64,000 nt of DNA from Pseudomonas lijiangensis (GTDB lineage Bacteria > Pseudomonadota > Gammaproteobacteria > Pseudomonadales > Pseudomonadaceae). Below, in pieces: positions 1 through 18,356 of this stretch. A model generated the notes under the pieces. It was not told where the DNA came from. It did not search any database and worked only from the letters and a program-made list of their open reading frames with translations. Within the stretch, counting starts at the first letter, position 1; each line of letters begins with the position of its first letter. Both the position numbers and the translations under genes were made by a program. The stretch covers positions 3,111,001 to 3,175,000 of the forward strand of contig NZ_CP076668.1 in assembly GCF_018968705.1 (NCBI RefSeq), written 5' to 3'.

Positions 1-3000
1 ACCAGAGCCTTGAAAGATGCCCTCGATCATCTGGTGGCCCGCCACGAAGGGCTGCGCACCACCTTCAAGCGCATCGCAGATCAGCCGGTGCAGGTGATTG
101 CCGCGCCCGACAGCGGTTTCAGTCTGACCGAACACGACCTGCGCGCCCTGCCTTTCGAGGAGGCGCAATCCAGTGCGGCACGTATCGCCCAGCGCGAAGC
201 GGCAGCACCTTTCGACCTGCAGCAAGGACCACTGATTCGCGGCAGCCTGATACGCCTGGCCGATGACGAATACCGCTTGCATATCACCCAGCACCACATC
301 ATTTCCGATGGCTGGTCCGTGGGTGTTCTGGTCAGGGAATTCGCGCAGATCTATGAAAGCTTCAGCCAGGGCAATACCCCATCGCTGAAACCATTGGCGA
401 TCCAGTACGCCGACTATGCCGCCTGGCAGCGTGAAACCCTGGCAGGCCCGCAACTGGCCAGTCAGCTTGAACAATGGCGCGAACACCTCAGTGGCGCACC
501 GACCCTCCTGAACCTGCCTGCCGACCGGCCAAGACCGGCGCTGCAAAGCTATCGCGGTGCCGATGTACCACTGGCCCTGAGCCCGCAACTGCTCGCCCAG
601 GTGGAACGCTGCTGCAAACAGCACGACGTCACGCTGTTCATGGTCCTGCTCAGCGCCTGGTCGGTGCTGATGGCGCGGCTGGGCAACGAGCGCGATGTGG
701 TGATCGGCGTGCCGACCGCCAACCGTGGCAATGCGCAGGTCGAATCCCTGATCGGCTTTTTCGTCAACACGCTGCCGGTACGGGTGCAATTGCAGGACGG
801 TCCGAGCGTCGCGCAACTGCTGGCGCAGGTCCGGGACACGCTGCTGGCCGTCCATGAACGTCAGGAAGTGCCTTTCGAGCATGTGATCGAAGCCCTGCAA
901 CCGCCTCGCTCCCTGAGCTACAACCCGCTGTGTCAGGTTGCCCTGTCTCTGAACAACACCCCGGACGATGGCCCGCTGAACCTGCCGGGCCTGACCCTCA
1001 CGGCACTGAATCAGGCTCAGGAAACCTCGCAGTTCGACCTGATGCTGTCCCTGGCGGAAAACGCCGGAGAACTGGGTGGTGCCATTCAATACGCCACCGA
1101 CCTGTTCGACCGTGCAACCGTGGAACGCTTTGCGCAATCCTTCCAGGTTCTGCTGGAAGCCTTTGTCCGCGACAGCGAACAGTCAGTCATGGCCTTGCCG
1201 CTGCTGACGCCTGCCCAGCGAGAAGCGCACCCGTCACTGCGCCCTCCTGTGGCAAGCTTCAACACGCCTGCCCTGATTCATCAGCGCTTCGAACACATGG
1301 CGGAACAACAGCCCCACGCCATCGCGCTGCAATTCGCAGAACGTCAGGTCAGCTACCAGGAACTCAACCGCAGGGCCAACCGCATCGCCGGGCAATTGCT
1401 GGAGCTGAACGTCAAACCTGACGACCGCGTCGGCATTCTCGCCGAACGTGGCGTGGACATGCTGTGCGCCATTCTCGGCGTGCTGAAAGCCGGTGCTGCG
1501 TATGTGCCGCTCGACCCGGCCTATCCTCAGGCGCGCCTGAATTATCTGCTGGAAGACAGCCAGCCGGTGGCCCTGCTGGCCCAGCCTGCAAGCCTGGATG
1601 CCCTGGGTGATCGCCCCGAGATTGCGCTGATCGAACTCAACCCGCAAACCAGTCCCGGAACGGCCACGGACGCGACCCTGGATCGCAACCCGACACCGGA
1701 CCTTGGCCCGCAGCATCTCGCCTACGTGATTTACACCTCCGGCTCTACCGGATTGCCTAAAGGCGTGCTGGTGGAGCATGGAAATGTGGCGCGGCTGTTC
1801 GATGCCACGCAAGCCAGCTTCAGTTTCGGCAGCGACGATGTCTGGACGCTGTTCCACTCCTTCGCCTTCGACTTCTCGGTCTGGGAAATCTGGGGAGCCC
1901 TGGTCTACGGCGGCAAGCTGGTGATCGTGCCCACCGAGCTGGCACGCTCGCCGGACGACTTCCATGCGCTGGTCTGCCGTGAGCAGGTCACTGTGCTGAA
2001 CCAGACGCCAAGCGCCTTCCGCCAGTTCATCGAAGCCGCCGGGCGCAGCCATGAAGCCCACAGCCTCAAGGAAGTGATTTTCGGGGGTGAAGCCCTGGAT
2101 GTTCGCACCTTGCGCCCATGGGTCCAGAACACGCCGCTGACCCGCACCCGACTGGTGAACATGTACGGGATTACCGAAATCACCGTGCATGCCACCTTTC
2201 ATGCTGTCAGCCAGGCTGAAATCGATGCAGGCGATAACGGCCTGATCGGCGAACCTTTGCAGGACCTGTGCCTGCGCATTCTGGATGCCTTCGGGCAGCC
2301 GGTGCCGGTCGGTGTCGAAGGTGAAATCTACATTGGCGGCGCCGGTGTCGCTCGCCATTACCTGAATCGCCCCGAACTGAATGCCGAGCGCTTCATCGCC
2401 GATCCGTTTTCCGCCAGCCCCGCAGCACGCCTCTACCGTACCGGTGACGTGGCACGCTACCGGGCCGATGGCGAGGTTGTTTACGTGGGCCGCAACGACT
2501 CACAGATCAAGATTCGCGGTTTCCGTATCGAACTGGGCGAGATCGAAGCCCGTCTGCAAGCCTGCGACGGCGTGCGTGAAGCCGTGGTGATCGTGCGTGA
2601 AGATGCGCCCGGTGATAAACGTCTGGTGGCTTACCTGATCGCCCATGAACAGGCGACGCTGGAGTCGTCGGCACTGCGTTCACAACTGGCCAGTACCCTG
2701 GCCGAGCATATGATCCCGAGCGCTTTCGTGCCCTTGTCGGCCTGGCCGCTGACCACCAATGGCAAGCTGGATCGTAACGCATTGCCCGCGCCGGATCGCA
2801 CCGCAACGGCAACCCGCGACTACGAAGCCCCTCAGGGCGCGCTGGAAATTGCCCTGGCCTCGGCCTGGCAGGAACTGCTGGGTATCGAGCGAGTGGGTCG
2901 CGAAGATCACTTCTTCGAGCTGGGCGGACATTCGTTCCTGGTGATCAGCCTGATCGAGCGCCTGCGCCAGAACGGCATTGTGCTGGACGTGCGCAGCGTC

Positions 3001-6000
3001 TTTGCCGCACCGACACTCAAGGCCATGGCGGCGGTGCTGTCCACCGATACCGGGACTGTCAGCGCTTCTATCCCGCCGAACCTGATCCCTGACGGCTGCA
3101 CGGAGATCACTCCAGACATGCTGCCGCTGGTCACGCTCACCCAGGCGGAGATCGAGCAGATTGTGGCGGACGTGCCAGGTGGTGCAGGCAATGTCCAGGA
3201 CATCTACCCGCTGTCGTCGCTGCAGGAAGGGATTCTCTTCCACCACCTGTTGCAGAACCAGGGCGATGCGTACCTGATGCGCACCGTGGTGAAATTCGAT
3301 CAGCGCGAGCGTCTGGACGAGTTTCTGGCTGCGCTGCAAAGCGTGATCAATCGTCATGACATCCTGCGCACGGCCCTGCGCTGGTCCGGCCTGCCGAAAC
3401 CGGTGCAGATCGTGCAGCGCCAGGCAACGCTGCCGGTGAACGTGCTCGACAGCAGCCAGGCTGCCGATCCGTTGCAGATGCTGCACGAACACACCGACAC
3501 CCAGACCCTGAGTCTGGATCTGCAACAGGCGCCGCTGATCGCGGCCTACATGACCTGGGACAGAACCCGGGAGCAATGGCTGCTGGCGCTGCTGGATCAC
3601 CACCTGATCAGCGATAACGTGACCCTGCGCCTGATCATGTCGGAGATCTACGCCATCCTGCATGGCGAAGGTCACAGCCTGCCGCCGTCCCATCCTTACC
3701 GGAACTTCATTGCCAAGGCGGCCATGGTTTCCCAGGAAGAGCACGAAGCCTATTTCCGCAAACTGCTGGGCGACGTCGACGAAACTACCGCACCTTATGG
3801 CGTGCTGGATGTTCAGAGCAGCGGTGCCGGCAATACCAAGGCGATCCGCTACCTGAGCGACGAGGTCAGCGCAGCCGTTCACCGCGTGGCCAAAATCCGT
3901 GGCGTGCCCAACTCCGTGCTGTTCCATGCGGCATGGGGACTGGTAGTCGCGGCCACCAGCGGGCGCGACGATGCGGTGTTCGGCACGGTGTTGTCGGGCC
4001 GCTCCCAGGGGGCCAGCGGTGCCGACCAGGCACTGGGCATGTTCATCAACACCCTGCCAATGCGCATTCGCCTGGAGCAAAGAAGCGTCAGCGACATCGT
4101 CCAGGATGCCTATCAGCAATTGAGCGAACTGCTGACCCATGAGCAGGCATCACTGGCCCTGGCCCAGCGTTGCAGTGCGGTCGATGCGTCGATGCCGTTG
4201 TTCACCGTCATCCTCAACTGCCGCCATGGCGAGATGATCACCGCCGATGGCAGCAATATCGCGGAATTCGACAAGTGGGACGGTATCCAGTTCGAGGCGT
4301 CGGAAACCCACACCAACTACCCGATCGAAATTGCCGTGGCGACTGAAAACGGTGCGATTTCGCTGACCTCCCAGACAGTGGTCGGCATCGACCCGCAACG
4401 GATTGCCGATTATCTGGCGCAGGCAGTAACCGTGCTGGTGGAAGCGCTGGAGCATACGCCGCAACGTCTGGCCGATACCCTCGATATCCTGCCTGTGGCA
4501 GAGCGCCAACTGGTGCTGGACGGTTTCAACCAGACCGCCAGCGACTTTGGCAGCCCTCGTCCCTTGCAGACCCTGTTCGAGGAGCAGGTTCAGGCTCAAC
4601 CGGACGCCATTGCCTTGGTTCACGAGCAGACACAACTCACCTATGCCCAGCTCAACCGTCGGGCCAACCAGCTGGCCCAGCGTCTGCTGTCCCACGGCAT
4701 TGAGCCGGAACAGCGGGTTGCCATCTGCGCGGAACGCGGCACCGAGATGATCGTGGCCCTGCTCGCCGTGCTCAAGGCCGGCGGCGCTTATGTGCCCATC
4801 GACCCGGATCACCCGACCGACCGTATCGCCTTTATCCTCAAGGACAGTAACGCTCAGGCTCTGCTCTGCCAGCAGGCTCTGATTGCTCACTTGCCTGACG
4901 AGCAAAGCCGTCCAGCGCTGATCCTGCTCGACGAACATGACCTTGCATCGGTCGATAACGATCCGCAGTACGACAGAAACATCGACCCTGCCGACCTCGG
5001 CCTGACCGCCGAAAACCTGGCGTATGTGATCTACACCTCCGGCTCCACCGGACAGTCCAAGGGCGTGATGGTCGAGCACCGTTCGGTGTTCAACTTCAGC
5101 CAGGTGATGGCGCGGACCACCCACGCCCATTGCCCGCCACAGGCCAATGTGGCGCTCAATGCCGGGTTCTACTTCGACATGTCCATCAAGGGCATCGCCC
5201 AGCTGTTCTTCGGACATCGTCTGATCATCATTCCGCCATTGATTCGTGCCAGTGGCCATGAACTGCTGGATTTCCTCGAAAAACATCAGGTCCATGCCTT
5301 CGACTCCACGCCTTCGCAACTGGATACCCTGCTGGCAGCCGGTCTGCTGGAGCGTCGCAGCTACCAGCCGATCAGCGTCCTGCTGGGTGGCGAAGCCCTG
5401 AATGCCGCGACCTGGGACAAGCTGCGCCAGAGCCGGAACATTCACTTCTACAACATGTACGGCCCGACCGAATGCACGGTGGATGCTTCCCTGGGGCTGA
5501 TCAGCGAACTGGGCGATCGCCCGAGCATCGGCAAGCCGCTGTCCAACATGCAAGTGCTGGTACTCGACAAGCGTGGCCAGCCCGTGCCGGTGGGCGTGAC
5601 CGGCGAGTTGCATATCGGCGGTGCCGGTGTGGCCCGCGGCTACCTGAACAATCCGCAAATGACCGCAGAACGCTTCTTCAGCAACCCGTTCTCCAGAGAG
5701 CAACAGGCTCGCTTGTACAAGACCGGCGACCTGGGTCGCTGGAAAGCCGACGGCAGCCTGGAATACGCCGGACGCAACGACTTCCAGGTCAAGATTCGCG
5801 GTTTCCGTATCGAACTGGGTGAAATCGAAAGCGCACTGCTGACCTCAGCGGCAGTGCGTGAAGCGGTGGTCATCGCTCGCGAAGACAATCCGGGCGAAGC
5901 CCGTCGTCTGGTGGCCTACGTTTGTGGTGAACCGACCTCTGCCGAGGAATTGCGCGCCCTGCTGCTCCAGCGTCTGCCGGAATACATGGTGCCCAGCGCC

Positions 6001-8814
6001 TTCGTGCAACTGGAATCCATGCCGCTGACCGCCAATGGCAAGCTCGACCGTCGCGCCCTGCCCGCTCCGGGTCAGGAATCGCTGGCCAGCCGTGCCTATG
6101 AAGCGCCACAGGGCGAAGTGGAAGAAGCCATTGCCAAAATCTGGCAGGACCTGCTGCATGTGGAGCGAGTCGGTCGCAACGATGGCTTCCTGGAACTGGG
6201 TGGCCATTCCTTGTTGGCAGTGCAGTTGCTCTCGCGGCTGCGCCGCAAGCTCGGTACCCGGCTGACCCTGCGTGAGCTGTTCGACGCCCCGACCGTACGC
6301 GGTCTTGCTGCAAGGGTGGAATCGGCATCGTCCGAGCAAAGCCAGACCATCCCGCTGGCCAACCGCAAGGAGAAGCTCGCCCTGTCGTTCTCGCAACAAC
6401 GGTTGTGGTTCCTGGATCATCTGGACCCGGCAGCCGGTGCCGCCTACCACCTGCCCGTGGCCCTGCGCCTGAGTGGACAGCTGAACCCCGAAGCCTTGCA
6501 GGCCGCCCTTGACCGTCTGGTGGCCCGCCATGAAAACCTGCGGACTTCGTTTGCACTGGTCGATGGCCAGCCGGAACAGAAAATCGCACCGGCGGACCGT
6601 GGCTTCACACTGACGCGGCACGACCTGCGCTCGTTGTCGGCCACAGAACGTCAACAGGCCATCGAGCAACTGGGCGAAACCAATGCCAGCACGCTGTTCG
6701 ACCTCAGCAACGGACCGCTGCTCAGAGGTTCTCTGGTGCAGACTGGCGACCATGAGCATCTGCTGTTCATCACCCTGCACCACATCATCTCGGACGGCTG
6801 GTCCAACAGCGTTCTGGCCCATGAGATCAGCGTGCTTTACAGCGCATTCAGTCAGGGCCAGAAGGACCCGCTGCCGGCCTTGCCACTGCAATATGCCGAT
6901 TACGCCGTCTGGCAACGGCAGTGGTTGCAGGGTGCTGCCCTGCAGGCCCAGACCGATTTCTGGCACAAGCACCTGCATGGCGCACCCGCCTTGCTGAACC
7001 TGCCCCTCGACCGGCCTCGTCCGGCGGTGCAGAGCTATGCCGGTGGCATCATCGACTTCGCCCTGCCCGACGGGTTGAGCGAGCAGTTGCGTGCCTTCAG
7101 TCAGGCACAGGGCACCACCCTGTTCATGACCCTGCTCGCGGGCTGGTCGACCCTGATGACTCACCTCAGCGGCCAGGACGACGTGGTGGTCGGCACACCG
7201 GTCGCCAACCGCCAGCGTACCGAGCTGGAGCCTCTGATCGGGTTCTTCGCCAACACCCTGGCCTTGCGGGTCAAGGCCGAGCGTGAGACGAGCGTCTCCC
7301 GGTTGCTGGTCGGTATCAGGGACTTGACCCTGGCGGCCTTCAATCACCAGGATCTGCCTTTCGAGCAAGTGGTCAGCGCGTTGCAGCCCACCCGCAGCAT
7401 GAGCCACAGCCCGCTGTTCCAGGTGATGCTCAGCCTCAACAACACGCCTCCCGCACCGCTGACGCTGCCGGGCCTCGAGATCGAGTCGCTGGAAAGTGCT
7501 CACCACACCACCCAGTTCGACCTGTCGCTGTCCCTCACCGAAGACCAGGGCACGCTGTACGGCAGCATGCAGTACGCCAGCGACCTGTTCGATACCGCAA
7601 CGGTGCAGAACATTCTCGATCTGTTCACCCTGAACCTGGAGCATCTGATCGCCGATGCCCGGCAACCGGTCGGCAAGTTGCTGGAGCAGTTGCCAGCGCT
7701 GGAGCGCGCCGGGAACGCGCCGCATCAGCCTGCCTCGCTGGATGCACAGGAAGCAGAAGCCTTGCCTTATGAAGCACCCCAAGGCGATACGGAGCTGGCC
7801 ATTGCAAGCATCTGGCAGGAGCTGTTCAAGACAGAGCAGATCAGTCGTCACGATGATTTCTTCAAGCTGGGCGGCATCTCGCTGATGGCCGTGCAAATGA
7901 CCTCAAGGCTGCGCAAGGTGCTGGGCAAGTCCATCGCAGTCCGTGACCTGTTTGTCGAGCCTACCGTGGCCGGTTTCGCCCGGACGCTGGATCAGCAGGC
8001 TGGCCAGGGCACGCGGAGCAATCTGGTGCCGATCCGTCGCAACGGCAGCCAGCGCCCATTGTTCCTGGTCCACCCGTTGGGCGGCGAAGTGCAATACGCC
8101 CGGGACCTGGCACCGGAGCTGGATATCGACATACCGGTCTACGGACTGGCGGCCAGTGGCTTCGCAGCCGGTGAAAAAACGCCGACCACGATCCAGGCCC
8201 TTGCCGCCAGCTACCTGACAGCAATTCGCGCCGTGCAGCCCAAGGGGCCTTACCGGATTGCCGGCTGGTCCGCTGGCGGTCTGATCGCCCACGAAATGGC
8301 GCATCAGGCCATTGCCGCAGGCGAAACCGTCGAGTTCCTGGGGATTATCGACACCTCGGTCCACAAGACAGCGCCTGCCGAGCAACCGATCAGCGAAACG
8401 CAGTTCCTGCTGGAATGGCTGCCCGAAAGGATCGAGCCAAGCATCAGGCGTGAGCTGGATGCCCATGCCGCCGCCAACCGGATCGATCAGATGCTTGCGC
8501 TTTGCCTGGCCAATGACCTGTTGCCGCAGGAGCTGGGCAAAGACATCGACGCCCAGTCACTGCGCACTCACCTGAAGGTTGCCCATGCCATCCGTCAGGC
8601 GGTCGATGCCTATGTCAGCCCGGTGACGGCAGTGAATGTATCGCTGTTTACCGCCAGGGATCAGGAGCGTGTCGATGCATCACTGGGCTGGAGCGAGCTG
8701 CAGGGCGACCGTGTGCAGATCACTCCGCTGCGCGGCGAGCACAACACGCTGGTGAAGGCGCCCTACGTCAGAGCTCTGGGCGAAGCCATCACTCTGGCCT
8801 TGAAGCGTCTATAA
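1..8814 (+). CDS. Non-ribosomal peptide synthetase, C-terminal part (C-A-T-C-A-T-C-T-TE), 5' truncated
   Basis: The frame is open from base 1, so the start lies outside the window. Domains in order: C1 (to about 1240, HHIISDG near 292); A1 (about 1270-2780, TSGSTG near 1735); T1 (serine codon 2932); C2 (about 3190-4480, with HHLISDN near 3598 in place of HHxxxDG); A2 (about 4560-6060); T2 (serine 6208); C3 (about 6370-7640); T3 (LGGIS, serine 7879); thioesterase (about 8010-8811, GWSAGG serine 8269, GEHNT histidine near the end). The ten specificity residues I read are DFWNIGMVHK in A1, the classic Thr code, and DMKDLGMVDK in A2, close to the Glu code DAKDLGVVDK and so an acidic substrate. 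C3 is followed directly by a carrier with no A domain. Known: SyrE of P. syringae ends the same way, adding Thr (to Dhb), Asp (to 3-OH-Asp) and 4-Cl-Thr, the last loaded in trans by SyrB1/SyrC. I infer the end of a syringomycin-family synthetase. Confidence 0.93.
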
Positions 8815-10771: not shown

Positions 10772-10834
10772 TTCGCGAATGAATTCGCTCCTACTCATTA
10801 AAATGGAATTCTGTAGGAGCGAATTCATTCGCGA
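10772..10834. repeat. REP-type inverted pair, family with core GTAGGAGCGAATTCATTCGCG
   Basis: Two 23-base arms (10772-10794 and 10813-10835) are reverse complements at 22 of 23 positions and are separated by 18 bases. The core, GTAGGAGCGAATTCATTCGC, is a common Pseudomonas extragenic palindrome. It lies just past the end of the Rieske gene on the minus strand and may act as its terminator or mRNA stabiliser. Confidence 0.85.
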
Positions 10835-10854: not shown

Positions 10855-11856
10855 TCAAAGCCAGATATCCAATTGCCGCTCTTCAAAAACCAACGGTTGT
10901 CCATGTTCCAGCAAACACCGGATCCCCGGGCCGAGCAGATCCTGAGGACCATCCAGCGGCGTCACCGGAAATGCCTGGAAACGTCGCTGATTGGCGCTGA
11001 CCTGCTGGAGGATCTGTCGGTCCTGGCGCAGGATGACCCGAAACGCCTTTTGCAGAACGAGGCGTTTGATCGCAGCCGGCAGCCAGCCTTGTGCCGTGGC
11101 AATCCGGGCAAACACGCGGAGTTGTCCATCGCCACACGGAGTCAGCCATGTGCTGGCCAGCAGGCTGAGGCCGTCGTGGCGATCGCGATATTCGATTTCC
11201 GCCAGGCCCGGCAGCCGGAAGCGCCCCATGCTGCTGCCCCGCTCACCTTCAAGCAGTCGCGAGATCAGCCCTGACTGCTTGCCCTCCTCGCTGTACAGCG
11301 CCTCGATGCCATCGGCCAGTGGCCGCACCCTGGCGCTGATTTTCTGCCGTTTGCGGTCGTGGCGTATCCAGCCGGCGTGGACGAAATGAGTATGGAACCC
11401 GTCGAGGAAGTTTTCCGCAGCGTCCTGCAGCGAGCACTGCACACTGTCCGTGATCCAGAACGTGTCGAGTGGCTGCTTTTGTTCGGCAGGCGCAACCGGC
11501 GGCATTGCAGGAGGTTGCCCGCTGAGGCAGACCCACACCAGACCATGGGCTTCGCAACAGGCCAGGCTGTCGAGCAGCGGCTTGCTGCCTGGAGCATGCT
11601 CGGTGCCGGGCACGCGGGTGCAACGTCCGTCAGCGGCAAATCGCCAACCGTGATAAGGGCATTCGATCTGCCCGTCACGGACCTTGCCCGCGCTCAGGGG
11701 CGCAAAACGATGCGGGCAGCGATCCGGCAGCGCAGCGGCGCGACCGTCTTCAGCCCGGAAAAGCACCAGCGGCGTGTCGTGTAATTGGCACGCCAGGGGC
11801 GCGCTCTTCAATTCGTGACTGAGCGCGACCGGCCACCACTGGGCAAGAGGATTCAT
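10855..11856 (-). CDS. Rieske [2Fe-2S] non-haem iron oxygenase
   Basis: A 333-residue protein beginning MNPLAQWWPVA; its ATG overlaps the upstream stop by 4 bp (ATGA). The Rieske cluster ligands are visible as C47-P-H49 and C66-PY-H69. The mononuclear iron site follows as ENFLDGFHTHFVH, giving E148, N149, D152, H155 and H160. This is the layout of aromatic-ring-hydroxylating and O-demethylating oxygenases of the VanA/PobA-like group. Such enzymes need a reductase, and none is encoded nearby, so electrons would come from a general ferredoxin reductase. As the last gene of the seven-gene operon it probably makes a late oxidative change (hydroxylation, dealkylation or desaturation) to the cluster product. 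The substrate is unknown. Confidence 0.88.
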   Translation of the reverse strand: MNPLAQWWPVALSHELKSAPLACQLHDTPLVLFRAEDGRAAALPDRCPHRFAPLSAGKVRDGQIECPYHGWRFAADGRCTRVPGTEHAPGSKPLLDSLACCEAHGLVWVCLSGQPPAMPPVAPAEQKQPLDTFWITDSVQCSLQDAAENFLDGFHTHFVHAGWIRHDRKRQKISARVRPLADGIEALYSEEGKQSGLISRLLEGERGSSMGRFRLPGLAEIEYRDRHDGLSLLASTWLTPCGDGQLRVFARIATAQGWLPAAIKRLVLQKAFRVILRQDRQILQQVSANQRRFQAFPVTPLDGPQDLLGPGIRCLLEHGQPLVFEERQLDIWL

Positions 11857-12992
11857 AACTTGAGCTTCTTCATCAGGGGCACGCCAATGCCATGCAGCAG
11901 GCAACTGAGCAACGTCCACACCAGCCGACGGCCCCAAGACAGATGGGCAACGCGGATCAGGCTGTATTCGATCTGGGGCTGACCACCACGCAAGCGCTTG
12001 AACCCGGCGGCACCGGAACTGAAATTCAATACCTGACGCCGTTTCGCAGCTTCCAGCAGGCACAGGCAGGTCAGTTGCCGATACAAACCCGTCTTTTGCG
12101 GCAGAGCCGTGTCATAGCCCACGATGGGAGTGCTCAGGGTTGTGTCATTGGCAAACCAGCCCAAGGCGCCGTCGATACGTCCGTCAGGCCTGCGCAGAAC
12201 GCGGATATCGAGCCAGCCTTCACTCTGGCCGCGCTGCATCCAGCGGGCGCTGTAGTGCGGATTCAGGATGCAGTACTTTTCCAGATAAAGCAGGTTGTAG
12301 AGATGTTCGATACGCTGAAAATCCGCGTCGCTCAGTACTGAGCCCGGCACGACTTCGTAGGGCGCGCGTCGCAAGAGCGTGGTGTCCATGCCCACGTTGT
12401 GGTGCTTGAGAAATTCAGCCTCGTCCCCTGCCCGGCCATCGAACAGATAGACCTGACGACTGGGAATGCTCAGGTAGCCGAGGGTTTGCAGATGCTCTCG
12501 CAATTCCCGGTTGCTGAAGTCGTTGATGGAGCGAAAGCACAAGGCATGATCCGGGAAAGCCTGCTGCAAAAAGGCGCTGATCGCCGGCAGTTCGGCGACA
12601 TTCCACTGGGCCGGGTAAAGATTGGTGGACAGCAGCCAGTTGTTGACCTGCACCAGCCTGTCGACCCTGGCCGCCCTCAGCAGCAGGTCAACGCTTCGGG
12701 TCAGCAACTGCAATGGCCAGGTCAGCCAGGGTCGGCCAAGGCGCTTGAGTTCTTCCCGGGCATAGCCGCTGTAGGCCGTGCGGGGGGAAACCACGTAGCA
12801 GTTATCGTCAGGTTCATTGCCATCGTTGATGCTGACCGGAAACGCCTGAGTACCGGTGTCGAGCAGCGCCATGCGGGTGCTGACATTGCCGATCAGGCCC
12901 GCGGTGGCGCAGGCGCGGACATAATGCCGGGCATGGCTGTCGTCCGGGTTGGCCTGCTCGCTGAGGAGTTGTTCCGGGAATAGCAGCTTCAT
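11853..12992 (-). CDS. GNAT/FemAB-like N-acyltransferase
   Basis: 379 residues from MKLLFPEQLL; its ATG overlaps the ATP-grasp stop by 4 bp. The C-terminal half has the look of a Gcn5-like acetyltransferase fold: a strand-rich region around GRIDGALGWFANDT, then GLYRQLTCLCLLEAAKRRQVLNFS, where the acyl-CoA-binding loop and helix should be. The N-terminal half resembles the extra domain of FemAB-type or double-GNAT proteins. It would move an acyl or aminoacyl group to an amine. Set between an ATP-grasp ligase and a Rieske oxygenase, it probably caps or couples an amino group in the cluster product. The family call comes from pattern only and the donor is unknown. Confidence 0.65.
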   Translation of the reverse strand: MKLLFPEQLLSEQANPDDSHARHYVRACATAGLIGNVSTRMALLDTGTQAFPVSINDGNEPDDNCYVVSPRTAYSGYAREELKRLGRPWLTWPLQLLTRSVDLLLRAARVDRLVQVNNWLLSTNLYPAQWNVAELPAISAFLQQAFPDHALCFRSINDFSNRELREHLQTLGYLSIPSRQVYLFDGRAGDEAEFLKHHNVGMDTTLLRRAPYEVVPGSVLSDADFQRIEHLYNLLYLEKYCILNPHYSARWMQRGQSEGWLDIRVLRRPDGRIDGALGWFANDTTLSTPIVGYDTALPQKTGLYRQLTCLCLLEAAKRRQVLNFSSGAAGFKRLRGGQPQIEYSLIRVAHLSWGRRLVWTLLSCLLHGIGVPLMKKLKL

Positions 12993-14143
12993 CGTGGACG
13001 CTCGTTCAGCGCCTGACCGTTCCACTCGATATCCGCCGTGGAAGCTGCCAACAGACCGCAGCGCCGGGAAACGGAGCGAGAGATGATTTCTGCAAGGCTC
13101 AACACTTGAGCGCCCAGCGGCCAGAAGTCGCCTTTCTGTACGACCACATCCCGGGCCGCGTGGTAATCGCGCCAGAACGCCTTGCTCAACAGCCGTTGCG
13201 GGGCCGCCAGCAAGAGCATGGCCAGTGCGATCATGCGCGGATCACCCGTCGGCTCCAGCACCTTCTCGCAGTTTTCGTGCAGGCTGCTCACTAGAAAGCT
13301 GCGCTGATCGTCGAACAGATGCACGCCGCTGGTCGCTCGCGGATTGCACTCCAGCACATGGAACCGGCCCTCGCGGTCCTCGATAAAGTCAAAGCCCACT
13401 TGCCCGGTGTAGCCGGTTTCCTGGCCGAACTGTTCCAGAAACTGGCGCACGGCTTGCGGCGCGGCGGGCTGGAAGTAGATCCCCGAGCCACGCCCCACCC
13501 GGTAGCGCGGCTGGTAGCAACTGTGGGCGCGCAGTTCGCCATCGATCAGCACGCTGAAACTGCAGAACTCTTGCCCGTCGATAAAACGCTGCGCCACCCA
13601 GGGTGAAGCGTTGTCGGGTTGAACCTTGCTCAACTGACTGGCCGACGGGCGAATCAGGGTCTGGGAAGCAAAACGCGAATACGCCGGTTTGAATACCCAT
13701 TGCCCGGCTTCAGCAGCCAGGGCCAGCACGGCCTGACGATCCGTCAGCAGTCGGGTTTCGGGAGCCGCCAGCGCCCAGCCCTGGGTCATGGCTGCGAACC
13801 GGCCTTTATGATGCAGGCGGTGCAACAGTGCAAAGTCACTGGTCAGAACACGGCACAGCGGGGCCAGCCGTTCAAGACCGTGAGACAGGTAGAACACTTC
13901 TTCGCAAGTGGGCAGCAGCAAGTCGATGCCCTGGGTTTCGATCACTTTCGCCAGGGCCTCGATCCAGGCGGCCGGGTCCTGTCTTGGCTCCGGCAGGCGC
14001 ACGAACTGCTGTGCCGAGCGGCTGAAACGGCTGAGTGGCTGGCCCAGAGAATCGCCGACGATCACATGCCATCCGGCTTCGTCAAAAGCCCGCGCCCATT
14101 CCAGACAGGCTGGCGCACGCGCCCCGAGAATCAGTACGCGCAT
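12989..14143 (-). CDS. ATP-grasp ligase
   Basis: 384 residues from MRVLILGARAPACLEWARAF. GAGGG sits six bases before the ATG, and the start lies 13 bp inside the end of the adenylate-forming gene. The N-terminal pre-ATP-grasp domain starts with a Rossmann-like LILGARAP strand-loop. The ATP-grasp body shows VFKPAYSRFASQ (nucleotide-binding lysine) and later GFDFIEDREGRFHVLECNPRATSG, in which the E and N of ECNPR are the usual magnesium ligands. ATP-grasp enzymes activate a carboxylate as an acyl phosphate and join it to an amine, thiol or other carboxylate. A carbamoyl-phosphate-synthase-like or amino-acid-ligase role fits the sequence. In this operon it would form an amide bond without an NRPS. 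Confidence 0.8.
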   Translation of the reverse strand: MRVLILGARAPACLEWARAFDEAGWHVIVGDSLGQPLSRFSRSAQQFVRLPEPRQDPAAWIEALAKVIETQGIDLLLPTCEEVFYLSHGLERLAPLCRVLTSDFALLHRLHHKGRFAAMTQGWALAAPETRLLTDRQAVLALAAEAGQWVFKPAYSRFASQTLIRPSASQLSKVQPDNASPWVAQRFIDGQEFCSFSVLIDGELRAHSCYQPRYRVGRGSGIYFQPAAPQAVRQFLEQFGQETGYTGQVGFDFIEDREGRFHVLECNPRATSGVHLFDDQRSFLVSSLHENCEKVLEPTGDPRMIALAMLLLAAPQRLLSKAFWRDYHAARDVVVQKGDFWPLGAQVLSLAEIISRSVSRRCGLLAASTADIEWNGQALNERPR

Positions 14144-15489
14144 GGCAGGCCCTCGGGCAATTGCAGCAGTTTCAGACGTCGACGCTTGGCATGTGGCGGT
14201 GGCGCCTGCCAATGACCAAAGCTCAACCCGGGTGGCTGCAAGGCGTGATCAGCGCACAGAGCCTGAAAGCTGTCGGTCAGGGCCTGGCACAGGCTGGCGT
14301 GATCGTCGCGAGCCAGCAAGTTGACTTGCCAGTGCAGGCCCTGCTGATGGATTTCATATTCCTGAAGCGCCGTGCCATGCATCAGCAAGGCGCGGCGCAT
14401 GACATCGGGATAAAGCGCCTGCAACCGGTCGCCTGCAAGGCTGGGCAGCCAGAGAATGTCATCGGCACGGCCTTCGACAGCCGCAATCGCCCGCTCGACT
14501 CGCCCACAAGGGCAAGGTGCCTGGGCGACACGCAGAATGTCATTGAGCCGGTAACGCACGATCATCTGCGTGCGCCGGGAGAAGTCGGTGATGATCGGCT
14601 GAAAGCGCGTGTGTCCGGCATCCAGCCATTGCGGTTCGATATGCAGGTGGCTTTCGTTCAGGTGCAAGGTGCCCTGCTCGCAGGTGTAACCCAGAAAACC
14701 TTCACTGGCCTGATAGATCTGCTGCGGTGCGACACCGAAGGCCTTGAGCACGGCATCGGCATCATCGCTTTCGAGCACTTCGGCCACCGACAGGATATGC
14801 GTGGGCCTTATCGTCAACCGCCCGCTCAGCCTGGCCTCGGCCAGCCCCCTCAATACCGTGGCCGGGGCCACCAGCACATCGGGGTTCTGCGCATTGAGGC
14901 GTTCAAACGATGCCTCGAGGCCCAGGGTCAGGTCGTGAAAGGCAAAGTCGATACGGCGACTGGACAAGGTGGTGTAGAGACGGCTGTTGGCGCGCAGGAA
15001 AAAGGCAATTCCCAAGGGCTCGCGCCAGAAGCACAGCAAGCGCGGCAGAAAGCGACGCGGCAGGGTTCGCGCCAACAGGATGCCAGCCCAGCGCTGACGC
15101 TCCAGTGCACTGACCAGAAACACGCCCTGATTGCCGGAAGTGCCGCTGGAAAGCCCCACCGTCATATCGCCCAGGGTCGGGCTGAAGTCCCGTGACTCCT
15201 CTGCCTGACGTGCAATGGGCAAGACCTGTTCCAGGCTCAGGCCGCGGGTGTTGAACCCGGCAAAGTCGCCCATCAGAGTGGCCTTGTCCATCAGCGGTAG
15301 GTCCGCCAGATCGCTGATATTCAAGCCTTTGAAACGCTGGGCCTGGGGCAGCACGTTTTGCAAAAAGTGCTGCAGCTGTCGGGCCTGCCAGGCTTCCAGT
15401 TGCTCACGGCGGGTGAAGCGCAACCGGTAGCGGCTGTTGATGAAACTCAGGGCGCTGCACAGAGCCCCCATCAGTTTTTCACTGCTCAT
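14131..15489 (-). CDS. PaaK/F390-synthetase-like adenylate-forming enzyme
   Basis: 452 residues starting MSSEKLMGALC; the gene overlaps the hydrolase upstream by 11 bp. The phosphate-binding loop of adenylate-forming enzymes is visible as GLSSGTSGNQGVF, followed by RPTHILSVAEVLE, an ASEGFLGYTC core and YRLNDILR with the conserved aspartate. A CPCGR cysteine pair, typical of the phenylacetate-CoA ligase/coenzyme-F390 synthetase branch, comes next. It matches what databases call F390 synthetase-related protein or putative adenylate-forming enzyme. It should activate a carboxylic acid as an acyl-AMP and pass it to CoA, a thiol or an internal nucleophile. With the ketosynthase III and SDR of the same operon it may hold the place that OleC, the beta-lactone synthetase, holds in olefin pathways. 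That comparison is inference. Confidence 0.8.
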   Translation of the reverse strand: MSSEKLMGALCSALSFINSRYRLRFTRREQLEAWQARQLQHFLQNVLPQAQRFKGLNISDLADLPLMDKATLMGDFAGFNTRGLSLEQVLPIARQAEESRDFSPTLGDMTVGLSSGTSGNQGVFLVSALERQRWAGILLARTLPRRFLPRLLCFWREPLGIAFFLRANSRLYTTLSSRRIDFAFHDLTLGLEASFERLNAQNPDVLVAPATVLRGLAEARLSGRLTIRPTHILSVAEVLESDDADAVLKAFGVAPQQIYQASEGFLGYTCEQGTLHLNESHLHIEPQWLDAGHTRFQPIITDFSRRTQMIVRYRLNDILRVAQAPCPCGRVERAIAAVEGRADDILWLPSLAGDRLQALYPDVMRRALLMHGTALQEYEIHQQGLHWQVNLLARDDHASLCQALTDSFQALCADHALQPPGLSFGHWQAPPPHAKRRRLKLLQLPEGLPCAY

Positions 15490-16333
15490 GAGCGAATGCC
15501 TCCCAGGCCTGGGTGCAATGGGACGGCAGCACCGCCACGGCCGGCTCTCGACGAATCAAAGTGCCAAGGTCGCTGTAGGTCTGGCGGTATTGCCTGGCAT
15601 CGTGACTGACAAAGTGCAGCGCGGGCCAGGCTGGCAGGCGCTCGGCACGGCAGGCGGGCACCGACCAGCAGGCGTCGGCCACCAGAAACACCGGACGCCC
15701 ATCGGCATCGGGGATAAACAGACCAAGCTGGCCTTCACTGTGCCCCGGCAGCGGCACGCCGATCAGGCTGCCGTCGCCCAGCAAATCCAGGCCCTGGCTG
15801 AAAGGTGCCATCCATTGGGGCAGCGCAACCTTCGTGCAGTGGTCGGCAAGCGTCACCCGTGAGCCGAAATCGTCCGGCAACAATGCGGGCAAATGACCGC
15901 CCAAGGTGGCGCGCCAGCGAGAGCCGCGCAGGCTTTCGATCTGTCGGCGGTCGGCATCCAGCGCAATGAACGATGCCTTGGGAAAATCCCTGAGTCCCGC
16001 GATGTGGTCGCTGTGGAAGTGGGAAATGATCAGGGTACGAATGTCATCCGGGTGAATACCGAACGCGTGCAGTTGAGCCAGCAGTTGCTCCTGCACGGGC
16101 AATTGCACAGGCACTGCACTGCGATACAAGCGCTCGGGCAGCTTCTGGGTCGCCTTGAAAAAATGCTCGGCGTAACCGGTGTCGTAGAGTATCCAGCCCG
16201 CATCGGGGTGGCGAATCAGGCCGCACAGTGCAGGGAAACGGGTCGACGCAATGCGTCCGCCACGATCGGCCATGCATTCCAGGTGTCGGCACCAACCGGC
16301 GCGCAAGACGTTGAGGCTGACGGTACGGCTCAA
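15479..16333 (-). CDS. Metallo-beta-lactamase fold hydrolase
   Basis: 284 residues if translation starts at the TTG at 16333, which overlaps the upstream TGA and has GGAG seven bases before it; no ATG fits. The metal motif HFHSDH (H105, H107, D109, H110) is intact, with a further histidine at PLPGHSEGQLG and an aspartate at VADACW. It has the lactonase/glyoxalase-II type layout. Members hydrolyse lactones, thioesters or phosphodiesters. In a pathway with a ketosynthase and an acyl-activating enzyme, it most simply acts as a thioesterase or lactonase that releases or edits the acyl intermediate. No signal peptide is visible, so it should be cytoplasmic. Confidence 0.82.
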   Translation of the reverse strand: MSRTVSLNVLRAGWCRHLECMADRGGRIASTRFPALCGLIRHPDAGWILYDTGYAEHFFKATQKLPERLYRSAVPVQLPVQEQLLAQLHAFGIHPDDIRTLIISHFHSDHIAGLRDFPKASFIALDADRRQIESLRGSRWRATLGGHLPALLPDDFGSRVTLADHCTKVALPQWMAPFSQGLDLLGDGSLIGVPLPGHSEGQLGLFIPDADGRPVFLVADACWSVPACRAERLPAWPALHFVSHDARQYRQTYSDLGTLIRREPAVAVLPSHCTQAWEAFAHEQ

Positions 16334-17337
16334 CCTTGTGCTCCTTGCCGGGCCAGCCACCACTGGGCGTGCTGGCGAATGCCCTCTTCCTGAGTCATGA
16401 CGGGTCGATAACCCAGTTCGTTGCGAATAGCGTCGAGGTTCAGGGTCTGACTGAATGCCAGCACGCCAGCGCCATAACGGGTCAATAGCGGCTCGCCGCT
16501 GCCCGTCAGCCGGGCGCGGGTTTCCAGTACCCGCGCCACGGTGTCCACCAGTCGCCAGGGCAAATGACGGGTGCGCAGGTTCAGGCGAAACTGCTCGGCG
16601 ATACGCTGCAGCAAATCCTCGAAAGCCAGCGGCGTGCCGTTACTGACGTTATAGGTGCACACGGCCCGAGGCAGCGGCTGGCTCAGGCTCAGCTCCACGG
16701 CATGCACCAGATTGTCGACGCAGGTCAGGTCCAGTTGCGCCTGACCGCCACGCATCAGCGGGATTCGCCCACGCTGCATGACCCGCAACAGGCGCGGCAA
16801 CAATGTGCCGTCCCACGGGCCGAAGACCGCACGCGGGCGCAGGATCACCGCTTCGGTGAGCCCTGCTTCATGCACTCGAGTTTCGGCCAGTGCCTTGCTG
16901 CGGGCGTATTCGTTGACCGCCGGTGGCAGCGGATCGTTTTCGCGAATGTCCAGACGATCACGAAAGGCAAAGTACAGACTGGGCGTCGATAGATGCACCA
17001 GACGCTTCACCTCGTTAATGCGACAGGCCTGGAGCACTTCATCGGTGGAATCCAGATTGGCCTGGGTAAAGGCTTGCGGCGTTCCCCAGGGTGAAGACAA
17101 TGCCGCGCAATGAACAATGGCGTCACAGCCTCGGGCGGCTTCGCCCAGTGCAGTGGCGGCCTCCGGTGTGCCGTGCTGCAAGGGAAGCCAGCTCACGGCA
17201 CCGGGGCTGTGGCGAATGACCTCGGCGGCTGCCGCTGGGTTGCGACCGCTGAACTGCACCTCGAAGGCCCGGGAGGCCAGTCGCCAGACGATATGTCGGC
17301 CAATGAACCCGGTACCGCCGGTAACCAGAACTTTCAT
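16330..17337 (-). CDS. Extended SDR, NAD(P)-dependent epimerase/reductase (OleD or 3-beta-HSD-like)
   Basis: 335 residues; the stop of the ketosynthase and this ATG touch. The Rossmann motif GGTGFIG (residues 7-13) and the catalytic S120, Y144 and K148 (YARSK) are all present. The closest described relatives by pattern are 3-beta-hydroxysteroid dehydrogenase-type proteins and OleD, which reduces 2-alkyl-3-ketoacids made by OleA. Its place directly after an OleA/FabH-type condensing enzyme supports reduction of a beta-keto product to a beta-hydroxy acid. It has no membrane segment. The family is certain; the substrate is inferred from the neighbour. Confidence 0.87.
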   Translation of the reverse strand: MKVLVTGGTGFIGRHIVWRLASRAFEVQFSGRNPAAAAEVIRHSPGAVSWLPLQHGTPEAATALGEAARGCDAIVHCAALSSPWGTPQAFTQANLDSTDEVLQACRINEVKRLVHLSTPSLYFAFRDRLDIRENDPLPPAVNEYARSKALAETRVHEAGLTEAVILRPRAVFGPWDGTLLPRLLRVMQRGRIPLMRGGQAQLDLTCVDNLVHAVELSLSQPLPRAVCTYNVSNGTPLAFEDLLQRIAEQFRLNLRTRHLPWRLVDTVARVLETRARLTGSGEPLLTRYGAGVLAFSQTLNLDAIRNELGYRPVMTQEEGIRQHAQWWLARQGAQG

Positions 17338-18356
17338 CAGTACTCCAGGATCATGCCGCCAAGCGAAAGGCCCGCGCCGGTGCCGATCAGCATCAGCGTC
17401 TGGCCACGCAGGATACGCTGGTCGCGAATGGCGATGTCCAGCGCAGTGGGCAGCGAAGCGGCCACCTGATTGCCGTGCCGGGCAAAGATGTCGATGACCT
17501 TGTCCGCTTCAAAGCCCAGGCGTCTGGCCGCATGGTGCAGCGCTTGCTGGCTGGCCTGATGAGGGATGACCCAGTGAATCTCATCCTGAGCCAGTCCGGC
17601 CTGGGTCAGCAGTTCATCCATCAGCGTGGGCAAGTGCCTGGCGGCCAGGCGATACACGTCCTTGCCCTGCATGGCAAAACTGGTCAGCGGCTCGAACGGC
17701 GTGTCGATACGACGCGGGTGAAAACGCGAGCCACCGGCAGGGATCTGACACAGGTGCGCGCCTTCGGAAAAGGTCTTGAGGCTGGAGGCAAGGATCTTCG
17801 GCCCACCATCACTGACGCCCAGCACCACGGCGGCCGCGCCATCGCCAAAAATTCCGCTGACTTCGACCTGCTGCCAGTCCAGACCGCAGGAAGCGATATC
17901 CGAGCACACCAGCAGAATGCGCCTGTAACGCCCGGCAATCAGGGGCCATGACAACGTATCGACGGCGGCGAGAAAGCCCAGGCAACTGGCATTGATATCC
18001 ATGGCTGGAATGCCGGACTGGCCAAGACCCAGTTCGCGGTGCAGCAAGGCGGCGTTGCATGGCAGGCCCTGATCCATGGTGCCGCTGGCGCAGGCGATCA
18101 GGTCGATCTGTTCCAGCTCGACACCGGCCGCACGCAAGGCATGGCGCGCCGCAATGGCGCCAAGGCTGGCGGCGGTTTCGGTGCGGCTGGCGACATGCCG
18201 TTGGACCACGCCGCTGATGCGCTCCACACTCCCCGCCACCAGACCCAGCTCGACATCGAGTTCGGCACTGGTGACCACCCGTTCAGGCACAGCGTGCCCG
18301 GAACCCAAAATGACCACAGGTCGTGGCGGGTGTGGCAAAAGCGGTGAAGTCTGCAT
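17337..18356 (-). CDS. 3-oxoacyl-ACP synthase III family condensing enzyme (FabH/OleA-like)
   Basis: 339 residues with the full catalytic triad: C125 in INASCLGF, H266 in IPHQAS and N296 in HGNQVAASLP. It is thus an active thiolase-fold decarboxylating or non-decarboxylating condensing enzyme. It is the first gene of the seven-gene operon, so it probably supplies the carbon skeleton by joining two acyl thioesters, or an acyl-CoA and malonyl-ACP. It is not the housekeeping fabH: the context is biosynthetic and no other fatty-acid gene is adjacent. No acyl carrier protein is encoded in the operon. The start is the ATG at 18356; the ribosome site is weak. The promoter should lie in the 88 bp before it or ahead of the upstream lipoprotein gene. 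Confidence 0.88.
   Translation of the reverse strand: MQTSPLLPHPPRPVVILGSGHAVPERVVTSAELDVELGLVAGSVERISGVVQRHVASRTETAASLGAIAARHALRAAGVELEQIDLIACASGTMDQGLPCNAALLHRELGLGQSGIPAMDINASCLGFLAAVDTLSWPLIAGRYRRILLVCSDIASCGLDWQQVEVSGIFGDGAAAVVLGVSDGGPKILASSLKTFSEGAHLCQIPAGGSRFHPRRIDTPFEPLTSFAMQGKDVYRLAARHLPTLMDELLTQAGLAQDEIHWVIPHQASQQALHHAARRLGFEADKVIDIFARHGNQVAASLPTALDIAIRDQRILRGQTLMLIGTGAGLSLGGMILEY

Follow-up and report, generated by a model that had tools for sequence, protein, structure and literature searches.

The seven-gene operon

The window analysed here comprises 64,000 nucleotides of Pseudomonas lijiangensis DNA (contig NZ_CP076668.1, positions 3,111,001 to 3,175,000), from a genome of 5.87 Mb that consists of a single contig. 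Our subject is a group of seven minus-strand genes running head to tail from position 18356 to position 10855 of the window, which an earlier note on this DNA had seen as an operon with the looks of an undescribed biosynthetic cluster. The list of open reading frames places all seven genes where that note had put them, in the following order:

17337..18356, minus strand: ketosynthase III (KS), FabH/CorB-like and not OleA (Pfam, NCBIfam, solved relatives, residues)
16330..17337, minus strand: extended short-chain dehydrogenase/reductase (SDR), an OleD-like reductase (NCBIfam OleD below cut-off, residues)
15479..16333, minus strand: metallo-beta-lactamase-fold (MBL) hydrolase, proposed thioesterase (family matches, residues; longest reading frame from 16363)
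14131..15489, minus strand: PaaK-like adenylating enzyme of TIGR02304, 'F390 synthetase-related' (NCBIfam over cut-off, residues)
12989..14143, minus strand: ATP-grasp protein of the carboxylate-amine ligase type (PRK06849 over cut-off, predicted model)
11853..12992, minus strand: tandem-GNAT protein with a Fem/MprF/Sbb17-like fold (predicted model and structural matches)
10855..11856, minus strand: Rieske non-haem iron oxygenase, VanA_C type (family match, motifs)

Neighbouring genes overlap at six of six junctions, by 1 to 13 bp (1, 4, 11, 13, 4 and 4 bp in operon order from the KS gene), as the earlier note had claimed; the starts of the MBL (TTG 16333), ATP-grasp (ATG 14143), GNAT (ATG 12992) and Rieske (ATG 11856) genes were picked by eye close to the upstream stops. 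A simple consensus scan found no sigma-70-like promoter (0, with 1.8 in shuffled sequences). Pfam and NCBIfam gave no match to a nonribosomal peptide synthetase (NRPS), a polyketide synthase (PKS) or a carrier protein among the seven proteins, again in agreement with that note, and their family matches include neither a membrane protein nor a transporter. A role in anti-phage defence was rejected, 0/7 proteins matching a PADLOC model at E≤1e-5.

Alignments with relatives showed intact catalytic motifs in all the enzymes of the set that were tested. Cys125, His266 and Asn296 of the KS are kept in 75/75 aligned sequences, Tyr144 and Lys148 of the SDR in 69/69, and the HxHxDH motif, second His, Asp and third His of the MBL protein in 69/69. 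In the ligase, the P-loop pair Gly116-Thr117 is kept in 86/86 and the C-terminal Lys435 in 84/86, while the metal-binding Glu and Asn of the ATP-grasp protein are found in 57/57. The Rieske protein carries both of its sites, CxH with CxxH and N-x2-D-x2-H-x4-H, in 21/21. Protein distances between members of the set also correlate (r 0.67-0.98 over 21 pairs), as expected for co-inherited genes, though shared species history contributes. These correlated distances, the conserved catalytic residues and the conservation across phyla described below together exclude a chance grouping, and on sequence grounds we conclude that this is a real operon, both conserved and coherent in function.

Conservation and variants of the gene set

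Co-occurrence of the seven genes, which the earlier note had proposed to search for, was followed around the F390-like ligase in 89 loci. Of these, 80 are the best of 568 confirmed ligase relatives that the ligase alignment picked out of a genome collection; eight plasmid loci and the locus in the window complete the sample. Counts refer to the 77 loci flanked by 4.5 kb or more in both directions (12 were dropped as short on one side), many of which are close relatives and not independent. The ligase is accompanied by the SDR in 76 of them, the KS in 74, the MBL in 72, the ATP-grasp protein in 52, the GNAT in 42 and the Rieske protein in 24. The full set occurs in 22/77 loci, and a core of four genes (KS, SDR, MBL and F390-like ligase) stands alone in 18/77. 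Three loci have no KS nearby (L011, L048 and L056); the first of these, on a megaplasmid of P. amygdali pv. lachrymans (L011:7905-11493), has genes for an F390-like ligase and for a homologue of the ATP-grasp protein but no KS, SDR or MBL nearby. Twenty further loci were read apart from the 89, and 15 of them hold the core four. The ligases of the other five (L114-L118) lie below the TIGR02304 cut-off, as do those of L123 and L124, which nevertheless have the full core; L113 and L094 are probably the same genome.

The core four was found in Pseudomonas, betaproteobacteria, Bacillota, Acidobacteria, Verrucomicrobia and Actinobacteria, in several gene orders. Most Pseudomonas loci and many betaproteobacterial ones share the order of the window (KS-SDR-MBL-F390-GRASP-GNAT-Rieske), Bacillota have KS-GRASP-SDR-MBL-F390, mostly with a GNAT, and Acidobacteria, Verrucomicrobia and others have KS-MBL-F390-SDR, which a GT21-type glycosyltransferase accompanies in several cases. 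Occurrence is patchy: a ligase over the family cut-off was present in 17/298 genomes of the genus, 5/299 of the phylum and 3/345 of the sampled actinobacterial class, each count including the centre genome. The ligase has its nearest homologues in Pseudomonas cichorii (98 and 97%). The compared flanking genes are common only to P. capsici and P. cichorii ICMP 3353 (and to P. caspiana on one side) among the loci examined, with a single further flank match at 31% in Undibacterium, so that in the other Pseudomonas with flanks the operon sits elsewhere. A recent move of the complete operon by plasmid was rejected, as no near match was found in 72,556 plasmid records (which may omit those of the genome that contains the window, or of one very close to it), and so was a phage origin of the ligase, with no match in 50,697 phage records.

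A related core was also found in Escherichia coli. In strain KE48 (L012:5158-12039), KS-SDR-MBL-F390 is followed by genes for a PAP2 protein, a fatty-acid-hydroxylase-family protein and a desaturase, beside narI; these neighbours were called from annotation, the hydroxylase also by Pfam. The related core is present in 672/5426 complete E. coli genomes, about one in eight, of which 671 have at least 80% of the longer stretch, and its carriers include ATCC 25922, ABU 83972 and NRG 857C. In five Pseudomonas genomes (L125-L129) the core is followed by genes about as long as the KE48 neighbours. The PAP2, hydroxylase and desaturase neighbours together with the GT21-type genes suggest lipid products in these variants; for the type found in the window a lipid product would be an extrapolation.

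The ketosynthase, the Ole comparison and a proposed route of acyl release

The KS is a FabH-type ketosynthase III by Pfam and NCBIfam. Its nearest solved chains are CorB (4yuc) and 4v2p (a 'ketosynthase' that we take to be MxnB), with 209 and 210 bits for the pair, and it shares with these chain-joining enzymes the active-site Cys and His region. CorB and MxnB work on chains bound to acyl carrier proteins at the end of PKS assembly lines, whereas the window operon has no PKS.

According to the earlier note, the first part of the operon parallels OleA and OleD plus an acyl-activating enzyme, which in Ole pathways (oleABCD) make beta-lactones. PMC7064751 gives Glu117 of OleA, followed by Pro, as the catalytic base. 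Its authors regard this Glu-Pro mechanism as essential to OleA condensation and as restricted, among the characterised members of the thiolase superfamily, to OleA homologues; two of their own OleA candidates are without it. The window KS has Leu98-Pro at this position. Glu-Pro is present in our references L097 and L098, and the L097 locus (L132) was verified as a true ole locus by two neighbouring genes, one for an OleC that passes its cut-off and one for an OleB-like dehalogenase. The KSs of the cluster form a clade of their own (29 rows, support 100/99) in a maximum-likelihood tree of 44 rows, and a 96/88 branch puts them, with four FabH-like rows (L104-L107), apart from the OleA-type rows, which were picked by Glu-Pro; the labels of L104-L107 and of the OleA-type rows other than L096-L098 are provisional. 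The OleA parallel is therefore not supported.

The SDR is the sole OleD-like member of the operon. NCBIfam OleD is its best curated match, at 180 bits with a cut-off of 580, which by sequence makes it OleD-like only; this part of the parallel holds to that extent, and a comparison with the PDB at 1e-20 returned no match for the SDR. The ligase passes TIGR02304 (391 bits, cut-off 251.9), whose name 'F390 synthetase-related' is an annotation label only, and its PDB relatives are weak and PaaK-type. It matches neither of the OleC models NF045786 and NF045785, no gene in the whole genome exceeds the cut-off of NF045786, and NCBIfam found no OleB among the seven proteins.

The operon could still be an Ole-like pathway to a beta-lactone or olefin in which the F390-like enzyme stands in for OleC and the MBL for OleB. 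Both systems have a ketosynthase III-family enzyme, an SDR of the OleD-like kind and an enzyme that adenylates a carboxylate, and four actinobacterial relatives do combine an OleA-type Glu-Pro KS with an OleD-like SDR and an F390-like enzyme. The window KS, however, has no OleA glutamate and falls on the other side of the 96/88 branch, the ligase is of the PaaK/F390 type, and the OleC and OleB-like dehalogenase of the true ole locus are absent from the set, which in addition has an MBL, an ATP-grasp protein, a Fem-like GNAT and a Rieske protein. We therefore rejected membership in the Ole pathway proper and regard the substituted version as improbable. With the OleA parallel unsupported and no OleC-type ligase or OleB among the seven, the beta-lactone formation suggested earlier finds no support either.

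The MBL protein follows the type of KS. Of the 74 loci that have both a KS and sufficient flanks, 69 pair a KS lacking the glutamate with an MBL, four have a Glu-Pro KS and no MBL, and there are no mixed cases; the remaining locus, L034, has a gap at the Glu position and an MBL, and was set aside, leaving 69 and four testable. The pairing of a Glu-less KS with an MBL recurs in all 15 further loci with the core four. The loci with a Glu-Pro KS (L046, L051, L062 and L069) are all actinobacterial and may go back to a single event. The actinobacterial L087, L094 and L112 have a Glu-less KS and have kept the MBL, so the swap tracks the KS type rather than the phylum. OleA-type synthases release their own product. 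According to PMC7064751, OleA, unlike FabH, readily hydrolyses p-nitrophenyl esters. Because of this ester hydrolysis and the KS-type/MBL pattern, the MBL protein is a probable thioesterase; it would probably supply release where the KS cannot, freeing what the KS and SDR have made so that the ligase can re-activate it. Family and solved-structure searches place the MBL nearest the acyl-homoserine lactone lactonases.

The combination of KS, MBL and ligase also resembles that of pqsABCDE, the genes for 2-alkyl-4-quinolone biosynthesis, the pathway of the Pseudomonas quinolone signal (PQS). There pqsD, pqsE and pqsA encode a FabH-type KS, an MBL-fold thioesterase and an AMP-forming ligase. The likeness is one of this trio lying in one operon, and the seven-gene operon differs in its ligase family, in the presence of an SDR and of ATP-grasp, GNAT and Rieske genes, and in having no PqsBC pair. 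The seven genes could accordingly make a secreted signal or amide rather than a lipid, a polar amine being added by the ATP-grasp protein and the GNAT. A PQS biosynthetic KS (3h76, 93 bits) is among the solved relatives of the window KS, and the finding of no membrane protein or transporter among the seven family matches would fit. The solved relatives listed for the MBL at E≤1e-4, however, include no PQS enzyme, the set holds no recognisable anthranilate-type or cyclising enzyme, and the variants have lipid-modifying neighbours. We consider a PQS-like pathway unlikely, though worth keeping in mind.

The second half of the operon and the proposed pathway

The ATP-grasp protein exceeds the PRK06849 cut-off (434 bits, cut-off 406), and its predicted model (pLDDT 93.9) has an ATP-grasp fold, matching those of GAR synthetase, PurK, CPSase-like proteins, biotin carboxylase and PylC. 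By sequence the GNAT label is very weak (PF13480, 16.5 bits, below the cut-off of 22), and a PDB profile search returned no relative below E 0.1 (two matches, E 0.13 and 0.27). The predicted model of the GNAT is confident (pLDDT 94.8, pTM 0.91) and has a tandem-GNAT, Fem-like fold, its best structural matches being the aminoacyl-tRNA-dependent Sbb17, FemX and MprF over nearly the whole length, at 7-14% identity (ranks 1-18). On the strength of this model the GNAT may add an amino acid, possibly from an aminoacyl-tRNA. In Psychromicrobium (L046:10275-12560) the ATP-grasp and GNAT proteins are fused in one frame of 761 aa, and a nearby P450 takes the place of the Rieske enzyme; L062 also has a P450-family gene. 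The fusion ties the ATP-grasp protein to the GNAT, and the P450s mark the oxidation step as interchangeable. The GNAT has four Providencia homologues (P0147, P0150, P0152 and P0155) at 74-75% identity, so the operon may have been transferred into Enterobacterales.

The Rieske protein has a VanA_C domain and is nearest to dicamba O-demethylase. With its intact Rieske and mononuclear-iron motifs and the modelled GNAT fold, the earlier suggestion that the second half could add an amino acid and oxidise it finds support. Together with the lactonase-like MBL and the PaaK-like ligase, the same protein could instead belong to a catabolic or detoxifying operon, in which the KS would act as a thiolase and the MBL as a lactonase to degrade a compound. 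The Rieske gene is outside the core (24/77 loci), though, a FabH-type KS with an ATP-grasp protein and a Fem-like GNAT are synthetic types, and the seven include no transporter or reductase partner; we judge such a role very improbable.

From the observed gene set, overlaps, active sites, conservation, absence of the OleA glutamate and KS/MBL correlation, and from the predicted folds of the GNAT and the ATP-grasp protein, we infer what the substrates and product are and in which order the steps follow. The FabH/CorB-type KS would condense an acyl thioester to a beta-ketoacyl thioester, which the OleD-like SDR would reduce to the beta-hydroxyacyl thioester. The MBL-fold hydrolase, acting as a thioesterase, would free the acid, and the F390/PaaK-like enzyme would re-activate it as acyl-AMP (or CoA). 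An amino acid or amine would then be added by the pair of ATP-grasp protein and Fem/MprF-like tandem GNAT, the latter possibly using an aminoacyl-tRNA, before the Rieske enzyme oxidises the product. The operon thus probably builds a small fatty-acid-based molecule, to which it may attach an amino acid. That it is dedicated, as a whole, to a small lipid-like metabolite synthesised, released, re-activated, aminoacylated and oxidised without carrier-protein assembly lines is the most likely reading, but a tentative one, to which we give nearly an even chance.

The surroundings of the operon contain further elements. A perfect 20-bp inverted repeat lies directly downstream of the Rieske gene (10775-10832); a special role for this hairpin was rejected, the 20-mer of its arm occurring 85 times, letter for letter, in the genome and thus being a dispersed element resembling repetitive extragenic palindromes. 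A large NRPS reading frame on the plus strand (10-8814) ends 2 kb downstream of the operon and runs off the left end of the window, in a genome with many NRPS-sized frames. In seven other loci (L028, L029, L037, L045, L053, L054 and L024) a protein family of about 250 aa, helix-turn-helix-like by eye only, is encoded directly upstream of the KS, divergently in 5/7, and is a candidate regulator; its L037 member had no NCBIfam match.

In the open-access literature, as far as its available text goes, we found no description of the gene set, its function or its product, and the uses of the F390 synthetase label examined there name the gene in tables or lists and describe no operon, in line with the earlier claim that no product is known for the set. 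The core four is nevertheless conserved across phyla, and a related core is carried by about one in eight of the complete E. coli genomes examined. Since no modular PKS, NRPS or carrier protein is encoded among the seven genes, tools that seek these could pass the operon over. More broadly, and more doubtfully, there might be a whole class of carrier-free lipid pathways, in which a four-gene module would form a beta-hydroxy acid, set it free and activate it again, the finishing steps falling to lineage-specific modules: ATP-grasp/Fem-like tRNA-dependent aminoacylation and a Rieske step in the window type, PAP2, hydroxylase and desaturase in E. coli and perhaps some Pseudomonas, and glycosyltransferases elsewhere. 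The swap between KS type and MBL would offer a simple rule for acyl release in such pathways, and the modelled Fem-like GNAT points to a possible tRNA-derived amino-acid transfer outside peptidoglycan.

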